Assembly: GCA_026003015.1 (NCBI GenBank)
Contig: BPGL01000004.1
Span: 60,270-124,269, forward strand
Source of the DNA: Actinomycetota bacterium
Lineage (GTDB): Bacteria > Actinomycetota > UBA4738 > HRBIN12
Direction of reading: 5' to 3'
Length of the DNA: 64,000 nt
Below are positions 58,036 through 64,000 of this stretch, piece after piece. How positions within the stretch are numbered: position 1 is the stretch's first letter; every line of letters begins with the position of its first letter. The notes beneath the pieces are model-generated. The model worked only from the letters and a program-made list of their open reading frames with translations. It made no database searches and was not told where the DNA came from. Made by a program: the position numbers and the translations under genes.

Positions 58036-58494
58036 TCAGCCGCGCGCCACCCGCTCGATCAGCTCGACCCCGCGAGCGACCGCCCCGAGCTCCTCGGGCT
58101 CGAGGTCCCCGAGTCGCTCCGCGAGCGCCCGCGTCCGACGTCGTCGGCTGCGCTCCAGCGTCCGGGCGCCGCGCGGTGTGGCGCGCACCCGGACCCCGCG
58201 GGCGTCGTCGGGATCGGGTTCGCGTCGGACGAGGCCGTCGCGCTCGAGCCCGTCGACGAGCCGTGACATCGTCGGGGCGCTCACCCCCTGGTCGGCGGCG
58301 AGGGCGCCGATCGGCATCGGCCCGTCCTCGACGACCGCGGTGAGGGCGGCGACCCGAGGGGGGGACAGGCCGAGCGCGTCGTCCTCCTCGCGCAGACGAC
58401 GCAACAGGTGCAGGGCCAGGACGTGCAGCCGGTCGGCCACCGCCTCGAGCTCCTGCACCCGTCGCGCTGGGGAAGTCCGCCTCGACGTGGGCAT
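58036..58494 (-). CDS. MarR-family transcriptional regulator
   Basis: A 152-residue winged-helix regulator: LSPPRVAALTAVVEDGPMPIGALAADQGVSAPTMSRLVDGLERDGLVRREPDPDDARGVRV in MarR order (recognition helix APTMSRLVDGLE, wing with the DxRxxxV pattern), followed by a dimerisation helix. An inverted repeat begins two bases before its ATG, so it probably represses itself and possibly rmuC. The ligand is unknown; the nearby amidohydrolase is a candidate target. Confidence 0.85.
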   Translation of the reverse strand: MPTSRRTSPARRVQELEAVADRLHVLALHLLRRLREEDDALGLSPPRVAALTAVVEDGPMPIGALAADQGVSAPTMSRLVDGLERDGLVRREPDPDDARGVRVRATPRGARTLERSRRRRTRALAERLGDLEPEELGAVARGVELIERVARG

Positions 58495-58720: not shown

Positions 58721-59761
58721 ATGGACGACGTGCTGTGGATCGGCGTGGCGGCGGCCTTGCTGGGCGCGGTGGGCGGCGCCGCGCTCGCCACCGCGCTCGC
58801 GCGACGGCCGGCGCAGCCCGACGTCGGCGGGCTCGAGGCCAGGCTCGAGCTGCAGGCCGCCGAGCTCCGTCGGCTCGCCGACGCGGCCGCCCAGCGCGAC
58901 CTGAGCGCCGAGCACCTGCGGGGATCGCTCGAGGCGGCCCGCCGGACCCTCGAGGAGCTGAGCGTCCGCGAGCAGGAACGGCGGGCTCGCGACGACGAGC
59001 ACCGCGACGTGATCCGGCGCCTCACGACTGTGCTCGCAGGAGGGAGCGCGACCGGGCGCGCCGGCGAGCACGTGCTGCGCGAGCACCTGGCCCACCTCCC
59101 GCCGACGATGCTCGAGCAGGGGTTCCGGGTGAACGGCAAGATCGTCGAGTTCGGCCTGCTGCTGCCCGACGGCCGCCGGCTGCCGATCGACTCGAAGTGG
59201 ACGGCCCGGGCCGAGCTCGAGGCCCTGGAGCGGGCCGAGAACCCGGTGGAGCGCGATGCGTGCGCGCGCGCGGTCGAGCGGGCGGTCGTCGTCAGGGCTC
59301 GCGAGGTCGCGCAGTACCTCGACCCCTCGGTCACGGCGCCGGTGGCGATCGCCGCCGTGCCCGACGCCGCCTACGCGGCGCTCAGGCGCGCGCACGCGGA
59401 CGCGTTCGGCAAGGGCGTCGTGATCGTCCCGTACTCCTCGGCGCTGCCGATCGCCCTGTTCCTCTACGCACTCGTGCAGCGCCTCGGGGCGGCCTCCGAC
59501 GTTCAGGCGACCCTGGTCGAGCTCGCGGCGGTGCTCGACGCCCTGGAGACCCTCGTGGAGAACCGGTTCGTGCGGGCGGAGCGGATGTTGGCCGGCGGCG
59601 TGGAGGAGGCGCGCTCGCACCTAGGGCGCGCCCGGGGGTCGATCGCCCGGGCTCGAGCCGCCGATCCTGGGGCCGTGGGGCCCGATGGGGACCCCGTGGT
59701 CCCCGCCGGCCCGACGTCGGCCTTCGACGCCGGGCGCGGCCCGGAGCTCGCGGCCATGTGA
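58721..59761 (+). CDS. rmuC: RmuC-family DNA recombination protein
   Basis: A 346-residue protein: N-terminal membrane helix (about 5-24), a coiled coil (about 35-100), then the RmuC nuclease-like core with GRAGEHVLREHLAHLPPTML, VEFGLLLPDGRRLPIDSKW and VVIVPYSSALPIALFL. RmuC proteins limit inversion at short repeats; the core is related to restriction-nuclease folds. ATG 58721 is preferred over GTG 58718 because AGGAG sits at proper spacing. Its stop codon overlaps the -35 box of the argC promoter. Confidence 0.87.
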   Translation: MDDVLWIGVAAALLGAVGGAALATALARRPAQPDVGGLEARLELQAAELRRLADAAAQRDLSAEHLRGSLEAARRTLEELSVREQERRARDDEHRDVIRRLTTVLAGGSATGRAGEHVLREHLAHLPPTMLEQGFRVNGKIVEFGLLLPDGRRLPIDSKWTARAELEALERAENPVERDACARAVERAVVVRAREVAQYLDPSVTAPVAIAAVPDAAYAALRRAHADAFGKGVVIVPYSSALPIALFLYALVQRLGAASDVQATLVELAAVLDALETLVENRFVRAERMLAGGVEEARSHLGRARGSIARARAADPGAVGPDGDPVVPAGPTSAFDAGRGPELAAM

Positions 59762-59794
59762 CAGATCTATCCAACAACTGCATACTTATGCGCA
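59758..59794 (+). promoter_or_regulatory. argC promoter with overlapping ARG box
   Basis: GTGACA (59758-59763), a 17-base spacer and CATACT (59781-59786) make a strong promoter, nine bases before the argC ATG. ACTGCATACTTATGCGCA (59777-59794) overlaps the -10; it has the GCATA-CT-TATGC palindrome and matches 12 of 18 positions of the E. coli ARG box. Bound ArgR would cover the -10 and start site. This is a low-GC island between GC-rich genes. Confidence 0.72.
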
Positions 59795-59795
59795 C

Positions 59796-60842
59796 ATGGG
59801 CGAGGTCGTGCGCGCGGCGGTGCTCGGTGCGTCGGGCTATGCGGGCGGTGAGCTCGTGCGGCTGCTGGCCACCCACCCGTCGATCGAGGTCGTCGCCCTC
59901 GGGGGCCACGGGTCGGCGGGCCGTACGCTCGCCGAGGTTCACCCGCACCTCGCCGGCCTGGCTGCGGCCGACCTGCCGCTCGATCCGATCGACGGGGATC
60001 CGCCCGCCGTGGACCTTGCGTTCACGGCCCTTCCCCACGGCGCGAGCGCGCGGGTCGTACCGGGGCTCCTGGACGCGGGGATCCGTGTTGTCGACCTGGG
60101 GGGGGATTTCCGCCTGCCGGCGGAGGACTATCCGACCTGGTACGGGTTCGAGCACCCGGCGCCCGAGCGGCTCCATGAGGCGGTCTACGGGCTGCCCGAG
60201 CTCTTCGGGGACCGCATCGGGGGTGCGGCGCTCGTGGCGAACCCGGGCTGCTACCCGACGCCGACCGTGCTCGGCCTCGCGCCGCTGCTGGCCGCCGGCC
60301 TGATCGAGCCGGAGTCGGTGCGGGTCGACGGCAAGACCGGGCTGTCGGGCGCGGGGCGTGGTGCGAGCGAGGCGCTCTCGTTCAGCGCGAGCGAGGACAG
60401 CGTGCGTCCCTACCGAGCGCCGGGCCACCAGCACACCCCTGAGATGGAGCGGGGCCTCGAGCTCGCGACCGGCCGGCGCGTCCCGATCCTGTTCGTCCCC
60501 CATCTCGTGCCGGCCGTCCGCGGCGTCGTGACCACCGCCTATGCGCGCCTGGCCGGCGGCGCGTCGACGGAGGACCTGACCTCGTGCCTGCGGGCGGCCT
60601 ACGAGGGGCGGCCCTTCGTGCGGGTCCTCGAGGCAGGCGCCATGGTCGATGCGAAGCGCACCCGGGGCTCCAACGTCGTCGAGCTGCAGGCGATCGCCGA
60701 CGCCCGAACGGCCACGGCGGTCGTCGTGGGCGCCCTCGACAACCTCGTCAAGGGCGCCGCCGGTCAAGCGATCCAGAACGCGAACCTGGCGCTCGGGCTG
60801 CCCGAGGCGACCGGTTTGCCGACCGCAGGGGTGTACCCGTGA
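59796..60842 (+). CDS. argC: N-acetyl-gamma-glutamyl-phosphate reductase
   Basis: A 348-residue NADPH enzyme reducing N-acetylglutamyl phosphate to the semialdehyde (arginine step 3). The N-terminal GASGYAGGELVRLL binds nucleotide; the catalytic cysteine is C152 in NPGCYPT; the end has GALDNLVKGAAGQAIQNAN. No Shine-Dalgarno precedes ATG 59796, and a -10 box is nine bases upstream, so the transcript is probably leaderless or nearly so. It leads argC-argJ-argB-argD. Confidence 0.94.
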   Translation: MGEVVRAAVLGASGYAGGELVRLLATHPSIEVVALGGHGSAGRTLAEVHPHLAGLAAADLPLDPIDGDPPAVDLAFTALPHGASARVVPGLLDAGIRVVDLGGDFRLPAEDYPTWYGFEHPAPERLHEAVYGLPELFGDRIGGAALVANPGCYPTPTVLGLAPLLAAGLIEPESVRVDGKTGLSGAGRGASEALSFSASEDSVRPYRAPGHQHTPEMERGLELATGRRVPILFVPHLVPAVRGVVTTAYARLAGGASTEDLTSCLRAAYEGRPFVRVLEAGAMVDAKRTRGSNVVELQAIADARTATAVVVGALDNLVKGAAGQAIQNANLALGLPEATGLPTAGVYP

Positions 60843-62035
60843 TCACGTACCCCTTGGGGTTCGAGGCGGCGGGGATCGCGGCGGGGCTCAAGCCCAGCGG
60901 ACGGGAGGACCTCGCCCTGCTCGTGGCCCCGCCCGGGGCGACGGCGGCCGGGCTGTTCACGACGAACCGCGTCCAGGCCGCTCCCGTGCGGCTCGCGCGC
61001 GAGCGCCTGGGAAGGACCGGGGGCGTCGCGCGCGCGGTGCTCGTGAACAGCGGGCAGGCCAACGCGGGGACCGGCGAGCGCGGTCTCGCCGATGCGGTGG
61101 CCACGACCGATGCCCTGGCGGCGCTCCTCGGCTGCGCCCCCGATGAGGTCCTGCCCTGCTCGACCGGCGTGATCGGGGAGCCCCTGCCGGTCGAGGCGAT
61201 CCGTCGGGCGCTGCCCGCGCTCGTGGCCGCGCGCTCGCCCGAGGGGAGCGCCGCGTTCGCGCGGGCGATCCTCACGACCGACACGGTCGACAAGCAGGCC
61301 GCGGCCGAGGCCGACGGCTACCGCGTCGGGGGGGCGGCGAAGGGCGTCGGGATGGTCGCCCCGCACCTGGCGACGATGCTCGCGTTCGTGACGACCGACG
61401 CGCCGGTGAGCGCCGCCGACCTGTCGGTGCTCGCCGACGAGGCCCTGCGCCCGGCGTTCGAGGCGATCACGGTCGACGGGTGCACGAGCACGAACGACAG
61501 CGTGCTCCTGCTGGCGAGCGGCGCGGCGGACGGTGAGCCGGTCGTCCCCGGCACCCCCGCGTGGGTCGCGCTCGCGGGCGCGTGTCGGCGGGTCGCCGAC
61601 GAGCTCGCCCGCCGACTGATCGCCGACGCGGAGGGCGCCGAGCACGTCCTGATCGTCGACGTCGAGGGCGCGGCCTCCGAGCGCGACGCCGGACGCCTTG
61701 CCCGCGCGGTGGCCGACTCGCCGCTGGTGAAGACGGCGGCGTTCGGGCGGGACCCGAACCCGGGCCGGATCCTGCAGGCGCTCGGCGCCGCCGGCGTCGA
61801 GCTCGACCCGACGTCGATCGACGTGTGGATCGCCGACGTGCGGGTGGTGGAGGCCGGCGTGATCCCGCCCGCGTACTTCGGCGACGACGGCCTGCGGGCG
61901 TCGGCCTCGGCCGCGATGGCCGGTTCCGAGATCCCGGTCCGCGTGCGGGTCGGTGGGGGACCGGGCACGGCGCGGGTCCTGGGGTGCGACCTCACCTACG
62001 GCTACGTCCGGATCAACGGGGAGTACACGACGTGA
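60839..62035 (+). CDS. argJ: Ornithine acetyltransferase / N-acetylglutamate synthase
   Basis: A 398-residue ArgJ protein recycling the acetyl group from acetylornithine to glutamate. The self-cleavage site is T179 in KGVGMVAPHLATML, with SGQANAGTG and the C-terminal LTYGYVRINGEYTT also diagnostic. Cleavage yields two chains. GTG 60839 overlaps the argC stop as GTGA. The stop is the first part of a 27-base tandem repeat that holds the argB ribosome site. Bifunctionality cannot be told from sequence. Confidence 0.94.
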   Translation: MITYPLGFEAAGIAAGLKPSGREDLALLVAPPGATAAGLFTTNRVQAAPVRLARERLGRTGGVARAVLVNSGQANAGTGERGLADAVATTDALAALLGCAPDEVLPCSTGVIGEPLPVEAIRRALPALVAARSPEGSAAFARAILTTDTVDKQAAAEADGYRVGGAAKGVGMVAPHLATMLAFVTTDAPVSAADLSVLADEALRPAFEAITVDGCTSTNDSVLLLASGAADGEPVVPGTPAWVALAGACRRVADELARRLIADAEGAEHVLIVDVEGAASERDAGRLARAVADSPLVKTAAFGRDPNPGRILQALGAAGVELDPTSIDVWIADVRVVEAGVIPPAYFGDDGLRASASAAMAGSEIPVRVRVGGGPGTARVLGCDLTYGYVRINGEYTT

Positions 62036-62085
62036 AGGGGAGGTCGCCCACGTGACCGGTGAAGGGGAGGTCGCCCGCGTGAGCG
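62032..62085 (+). repeat. 27-bp tandem repeat duplicating the argB ribosome site and start
   Basis: GTGAAGGGGAGGTCGCCCACGTGACCG (first copy) and GTGAAGGGGAGGTCGCCCGCGTGAGCG (second) match at 25 of 27 positions. Each has AAGGGGAGG and a following GTG (62052 and 62079) in the same frame, so argB has two complete initiation sites. Confidence 0.85.
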
Positions 62086-62965
62086 CGCCGCAGATCCGCC
62101 AACGCACCGTGGCCAAGGCGCGCACGCTGCTCGAAGCGCTCCCGTTCATCGCGCGCCCACCAGGGGCGCACGATCGTCATCAAGTACGGCGGCGCGGCGA
62201 TGGACACCGCCGGCCTGGCGAGTTCCTTCGCCGAGGACGTCGCGCTCGTGCAAAGCGTCGGGATCCGTCCCGTGATCGTGCACGGGGGCGGCCCGGCCGT
62301 CACGCAGCTGTCGGACAGGCTCGGGATCGAAACGACGTTCGTCGACGGCCTGCGCGTCACCGACGCGGCCACGCTCGACGTCGCCACGATGGTGCTCGCC
62401 GGCAAGCTCAACACCGAGGTCGTCGCGACGCTCGTCGCCGGCGGGGTGAACGCGGTCGGGCTCTCGGGCGTCGACGGGCGCCTGCTGCTCGCGCGTCCGA
62501 CGAGCGAGCCGGACCTGGGCTTCGTGGGCGAGGTCGTTCACGTCCGCGTCGACGTGCTGGACACGCTCCTGGGTCGGGGCTTCGTGCCCGTCGTCGCGTC
62601 GATCGCGGTCGACGAGTCGGGGCAGGCCTACAACGTGAACGCCGACGTCGTCGCCGCCGAGCTCGCGATCGCGCTTCGAGCGCAGAAGCTCGTCTACGTG
62701 CTCGACGTCCCCGGCCTGCTCGGTTCCGGGGGCGAGCTGTTGTCGGAGCTGTCGGCCGAGCAGGCTCGCGAGCTGCTCGACCGCCGCGGCGTGATCGAGG
62801 GGGGCATGATCCCGAAGGTCGAGAGCGCCGTGCGGGCCCTCGGCGCGGGCGTGGAACGGGTGCACCTCGTCGACGGCCGGGTCGAGCACGCGGTGGTGCT
62901 CGAGCTGTTCACCCCCCGAGGGGATCGGCACGATGATCGCGCCCGAGGCCGGGAGCGCGCCGTGA
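62052..62965 (+). CDS. argB: Acetylglutamate kinase, interrupted by two single-base insertions
   Basis: The kinase sequence is clear when three frames are joined: LLEALPFIAR, then HQGRTIVIKYGGAAM, HGGGPAVTQLSDRLG, LAGKLNTEVVATL, VNADVVAAELAIAL, RGVIEGGMIPKVESA, and FTPEGIGTMIAPE to TGA 62965. One extra C in the run at 62156-62158 and one in the six-C run at 62912-62917 break the frame. Corrected, it is about 300 residues and intact, and its stop overlaps argD as GTGA. Start is GTG 62052 or 62079. It phosphorylates N-acetylglutamate and is often feedback-inhibited by arginine. Confidence 0.85.
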
Positions 62966-64000
62966 TCGACGAGCGCTGGGTCATGCCCGACCTACGCGCG
63001 GCTCCCCGTCACCCTCGTGCGCGGCGAGGGCGCGCGGGTGATCGACGACGAGGGCCGCACCTACCTCGATCTGATCGGTGGCCTCGGCGCGCTCGCGCTC
63101 GGGCACGCGCACCCGCGGTGGGTCGAGGCCGTCGAACGCGCCTCGCGCACGATCGGGCTCACGTCGAACCTCGTGGCCACGCCCGCGCAGGCCGAGCTCG
63201 CCGAGCGTCTCGCCGCCCTGCTGCCGGTGCCCGACGCGCGCGTGTTCTTCTGCAACTCCGGCGCCGAGGCCGTCGAGGCGCTGCTCAAGCTCGTCCGACG
63301 GGCGGGCCTGGTGCGCGGCCGGCCGATCGTCGTCGCCCTCGAGGGGTCGTTCCACGGCCGCACGATCGGGGCCCTCTCGGTCACCGGGCAGCCCGCCAAA
63401 CGGGCCCCGTTCGAGCCCCTCGTCGACCTGGGTCCGGTTCGTGCCGCCGGCCGACCCCGCGGCGCTCGAGGCCGCGCTCGAGCCGGGAGACGTCGCCGCC
63501 GTGCTGCTCGAGCCGGTGCTCGGCGAGGGCGGGGTCGTGCCGCTGGGTCCCGGCTACCTGCGCGCGGTGCGCGAGCGCTGCGCCGAGCACGGGGCGCTGT
63601 TCGCCGTGGACGAGGTGCAGTCCGGGATCGGGCGTTGCGGGAGGTGGCTCGCGATCGAGGAGGCCGGGGTCGCCCCCGACGTCGTCGCGATCGCCAAGGC
63701 GCTCGGCGGCGGCCTGCCGATCGGCGCGCTCGTCGCTCGGGCGGAGCTCTCGTTCGGCCCGGGCGAGCACGCCTCGACGTTCGGCGGCGGCCCGGTACCG
63801 GCGGCGGCGGCCCTGGCGGTTCTGGCCGCGATCGAGGACGAGGCGCTGCTCGAGCGCGTGCGCCGCACCGGCGAGGGTCGTGCGCGAAGCGATCCAGCGC
63901 TCGGTTCCGCCGGGCGCGGTTGCCGAGGTGCGCGGCCGGGGTCTGTTGGTGGGGGTGCGTCTGGCGGCTGGGCTCGACGCCTCTCAGGTGGTGCTCGCGC
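62962..64000 (+). CDS. argD: Acetylornithine aminotransferase, frame-broken and cut by window end
   Basis: A class III PLP aminotransferase absent from the ORF track because its frame breaks three times. Joined pieces read YARLPVTLVRGEGARVIDD, FFCNSGAEAVEALLKL, SFHGRTIGALSVTGQPAKRA, VAAVLLEPVLGEGGV, FAVDEVQSGIGR and AIAKALGGGLPIGALV, with the PLP lysine in the last. Single extra bases lie near 62985-62992, 63436-63439 and 63875-63877. It converts acetylglutamate semialdehyde to acetylornithine. GTG 62962 overlaps the argB stop. The C-terminus is beyond the window. Confidence 0.83.
   Translation, partial: MIDERWVMPDLRAAPRHPRARRGRAGDRRRGPHLPRSDRWPRRARARARAPAVGRGRRTRLAHDRAHVEPRGHARAGRARRASRRPAAGARRARVLLQLRRRGRRGAAQARPTGGPGARPADRRRPRGVVPRPHDRGPLGHRAARQTGPVRAPRRPGSGSCRRPTPRRSRPRSSRETSPPCCSSRCSARAGSCRWVPATCARCASAAPSTGRCSPWTRCSPGSGVAGGGSRSRRPGSPPTSSRSPRRSAAACRSARSSLGRSSRSARASTPRRSAAARYRRRRPWRFWPRSRTRRCSSACAAPARVVREAIQRSVPPGAVAEVRGRGLLVGVRLAAGLDASQVVLA

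Follow-up and report, generated by a model that had tools for sequence, protein, structure and literature searches.

The window analysed here, a 64-kb stretch of DNA, belongs to a genome of 2.2 Mb in 4 contigs (90.5% complete), and its last base is also the last base of contig C4 (C4:124269). The far end of the window carries a run of genes on the plus strand: rmuC (58721–59761; RmuC family, PF02646, E 7.5e-11), which ends inside the −35 hexamer of the promoter described below; argC (59796–60842; PF01118/PF22698), which encodes N-acetyl-gamma-glutamyl-phosphate reductase; argJ (60840–62035; PF01960, E 2.1e-127); argB (62080–62963), recognized from reading frames and by tblastn to relatives; and argD (62963–64000), within which the contig is cut. 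The frame breaks near 62150 in argB, and near 63430 and 63880 in argD, are likely assembly indels close to the contig end. The closest named relatives of argC are uncultured Actinomycetota, and the argC homologues of the family relatives are 62–68% identical.

Two features of the neighbourhood may be recorded in passing. Here rmuC adjoins argC directly, where relatives have about 0.8–1.6 kb between the two genes, which suggests that a gene between them was lost or that the region was rearranged. Upstream of rmuC, on the minus strand (58036–58494), lies a gene for a regulator that by eye is MarR-like; the gene start is preceded by an AT-rich stretch.

Promoter and ARG box before argC

The original prediction had placed a promoter of the form GTGACA-N17-CATACT in front of argC, and its coordinates were confirmed: the −35 hexamer GTGACA (59758–59763, plus strand) agrees with TTGACA at 5 of 6 positions, the spacer is exactly 17 bases long, and the −10 hexamer CATACT (59781–59786, plus strand; 4 of 6 positions matched) is separated by 9 bases from the argC ATG at 59796. 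The −35 does make use of the end of rmuC, as had been proposed, with the stop codon TGA (59759–59761) falling within the hexamer and the last codon, ATG (59756–59758), supplying its first base. The promoter is of moderate strength (9 of 12 positions), and its −10 begins with C instead of T, i.e., misses TANNNT, because these bases are shared with the ARG box. The A of the −10 lies 14 bases ahead of the argC ATG, inside the range of roughly 8–14 bases by which leaderless promoters are recognized, and no Shine–Dalgarno sequence is visible before argC. From this layout the argC leader is expected to be very short (about 0–4 bases).

The ARG box, ACTGCATACTTATGCGCA (59777–59794, plus strand), has 18 bases that enclose the whole −10, and in its 20-base form (59776–59795) the last base adjoins the argC ATG. 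The arms, TGCAT and ATGCG, stand 4 bases apart, and the box agrees with the consensus WNTGMATWWWWATKCANW at 16 of 18 positions (2 mismatches), the right arm closing with G instead of A. It had been described as an 18-base palindrome, which is correct for the inner GCATA-CT-TATGC and incorrect for the outer bases, which are asymmetrical. Within the 64 kb no other site matches the ARG consensus with at most 3 mismatches (0.03 expected), and there is no second sigma-70-type promoter-like site besides the argC promoter. Three of the features expected of an ArgR operator were found, namely a palindrome of the consensus type, a location at an arginine-gene promoter, and conservation at orthologous promoters (see below).

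Scoring was done with a matrix made from 35 S. coelicolor boxes from ArgR-bound fragments (table in PMC5839063), with which 59776–59795 reached 17.4 bits and led the runner-up of the window (10.5 bits) by 7 bits. Of 60 random windows with matched composition, 1 had an equally high box somewhere (about 0.02 per window), so that the matrix score alone is only suggestive, and the case for the box rests on its position plus its conservation. A weak upstream box probably lies over the −35 and the spacer (59757–59776, plus strand), where the score in the window is 2.2 bits and a degenerate half-site, ATCCA, is found at 59769–59773.

Conservation and near-uniqueness of the site

The family comparison covered 11 argC upstream regions, with nine other genera in all. 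The exact core TGCATNNNNATGCR lies over the −10 before argC in 9 of these 11 relatives (0.004 expected), and in 10 when one mismatch is allowed, counts that overstate the independence of the sequences because the relatives share descent; the eleventh, G004, retains TGCATAATCACTCA. Most of the family promoters have a TTGACR-like −35, and a hexamer with at least 5 of 6 matches to TTGACA at a spacing of 16–18 is present in 9 of the 11, the TTGACA-like signal having its sharp maximum where the spacer is 17 bases (on average 4.0 of 6 matches) and three sequences having 16 or 18. The −10 position is occupied by CATAnn or CATGAA, and the gap from there to the start codon is 8–11 bases across the family, which leaves at most a few bases between the expected transcript start and the argC start codon. 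The mean box score of the family has a second peak, which overlaps the −35 and precedes the main box by 19 bases, and a clear upstream ATGCA half-site, weak in the window, occurs in 6 of the 11 relatives; two relatives that belong to the order but to other families have it at an offset of 20, as in the contiguous 20-base boxes of Streptomyces. The recurrence of the same layout in related uncultured actinobacteria makes the switch almost certainly real.

A search for the box at other arg genes, which had been put forward as a check, gave a single match to TGCATAWTTATGCA with at most 2 mismatches in the own genome, i.e., the argC site, and no good box near argF (C1:374588) on the strand scanned. 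In six of the seven relatives searched, too, the sole genome-wide match to TGCATAWTTATGCA at this threshold sits before argC. Exact matches to TGMATNNNNATKCR were found at five further sites of the own genome, each of which was scored with the Streptomyces matrix, and just one of them (C1:42627) outscores the argC box. This site, TGAATGGTCATTCA (C1:42624–42643), is a perfect palindrome of 23 bits with a whiB-like gene on one side and a divergent gene on the other; its arms differ from those of the argC box, and it could be an ArgR site or one of TetR type.

argR, the contig end and other explanations

The reading of the site as the operator–promoter of an argCJBD(RGH) operon, with ArgR as a feedback switch at argC, is the best explanation, to which we would give a probability of roughly nine in ten. 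As first put forward, it is supported by the Streptomyces matrix, by the conservation of the box over the −10, and by the presence of argR in the operon of the relatives. There argR comes after argD, or after argB where argD is elsewhere, and where the operon does include argD, argR begins ~3.3 kb after argC, a position roughly 150 bases past the end of this contig. In the one relative that was read through to argG and argH (G006) the order is argC-J-B-D-R-G-H. The prediction that argR would follow argD thus holds exactly for the relatives, whereas the own contig stops inside argD.

The own assembly yielded no credible match to the N- and C-terminal families of ArgR, no argG, and for argH sub-cut-off matches alone. 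The lack of an argR gene in the genome had been named beforehand as grounds for giving up the claim. Taken literally, this is what the assembly gives, yet it is uninformative, because argR, argG and argH are missing together and the contig ends where the relatives carry argR, and it was rejected as a refutation. The absence of all three genes is as expected from a gap at the contig end, and a loss of argR is far less likely. Of the order's 26 other genomes, 14 have argC together with argR and 11 have neither, and the one with argR only has its contig cut in argB. Several order members without the two genes are 86–91% complete (G003, G007, G013, G019, G021, G024 and others), and these may be arginine auxotrophs.

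The same absences could be read differently, i.e., the promoter would be real and the box an unbound relic in a genome that has lost argR, argG and argH, with the relatives that are without both argC and argR as a parallel. This is very unlikely in view of a contig that ends in argD ~150 bases short of the expected argR start, in an assembly that is 90.5% complete; moreover, the core of the box is intact and argF is present, and as the relatives without argR are also without argC, a genome with argC and no argR would be a single exception, which the gap explains. Slightly less probable still is the binding of the palindrome by another regulator, e.g., one of TetR or Lrp type: ArgR is not the only regulator with short TGCAT/ATGCA palindromes, and the palindrome before the whiB-like gene scores above the argC box, but the position before argC, the match to ArgR-bound boxes, the occurrence of argR in the same operon of the relatives and the near-uniqueness at argC all point to ArgR. 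A chance AT-rich stretch in a GC-rich genome, which the 1 in 60 random windows might allow, was rejected as an origin of the box, since conservation in the same place across nine other genera (9 of 11 exact cores against 0.004 expected) leaves it a negligible probability.

The predicted switch and known arginine operators

In the operator–promoter reading, polymerase with the main sigma factor would use GTGACA-N17-CATACT, and the message would begin with the argC ATG or a few bases ahead of it. With arginine in ample supply, hexamers of ArgR together with arginine would occupy the ARG box over the −10, probably aided by the weak second box over the −35 and the spacer, and the bound ArgR would exclude RNA polymerase. 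The gene for ArgR is most likely the next one after argD in the same operon, in which case ArgR would also repress its own synthesis, and with the gene order of G006 a single operator could control most of the pathway as well as argR.

The arginine pocket of the relatives' ArgR deserves attention for an unusual change, as the GDD motif has become GDN in 10 of the 11 ArgR proteins of the family, with G002 as the family member retaining GDD, and also in G020, from another family of the order (loci L051, L052, L055, L056, L059–L061 and L063–L066, from family and order relatives). GlyAspAsp was the only fully conserved stretch of more than two residues among four ArgRs compared (PMC7248756), and in simulations of E. 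coli ArgR both Asp residues contact arginine (PMC2880562). The GDN motif may thus mean an altered response to arginine. An extended version, in which one operator governs an almost leaderless argC and the genes through argR, argG and argH, and in which another arginine response or another effector may follow from the GDN ArgR, seems rather unlikely from what the genomes contain.

The placing of an operator over an arg promoter and the argCJBDR operon have precedents in E. coli and Streptomyces (PMC3293853, PMC5839063). E. coli operators consist of two 18-bp ARG boxes 3 bp apart that overlap the promoter, and operators with a single box are also known (PMC3293853). The argC site resembles those of E. 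coli in the operator placed over the promoter, the predicted direct block of polymerase and the 18-bp consensus, and differs from them in that two boxes make up each operator there. The arms of the E. coli box are TGAAT and ATTCA. Near-leaderless genes are common in Actinobacteria, and the argC promoter resembles theirs in having the −10 about 10–15 bases before the start and no Shine–Dalgarno sequence (PMC3160421), and differs from theirs in a −10 that does not fit TANNNT; a literature search for ArgR at a leaderless argC turned up nothing beyond a start-site paper on E. coli/Klebsiella.

The likeness to Streptomyces lies in the ARG boxes of the TGCAT-N4-ATGCA type directly before argC. In S. 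coelicolor the argC boxes are close to the start codon, with a listed distance of 18 bases between B1 and one possible start codon, and S. clavuligerus has footprinted ARG boxes and an argCJBDR operon (PMC3293853, PMC5839063), with argR inside the operon as in the relatives here. In contrast to Streptomyces, the −10 here is covered by a single strong box, with a weak one upstream at a distance that in the family is 19 rather than 20 bases, and argG and argH come after argR in G006; argG, argH and arcB of S. coelicolor have boxes of their own, whereas six relatives here are without a near-perfect box beyond argC. The −10, the operator and the expected message start share about 20 bases, a clean regulatory overlap that involves no new principle, and the apparent absence of argR is most likely explained by an assembly gap, not by biology. 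The circuit is a textbook feedback loop, its one operator lying over the promoter and argR sitting within the operon itself, and it would thereby extend to an uncultured actinobacterial family.
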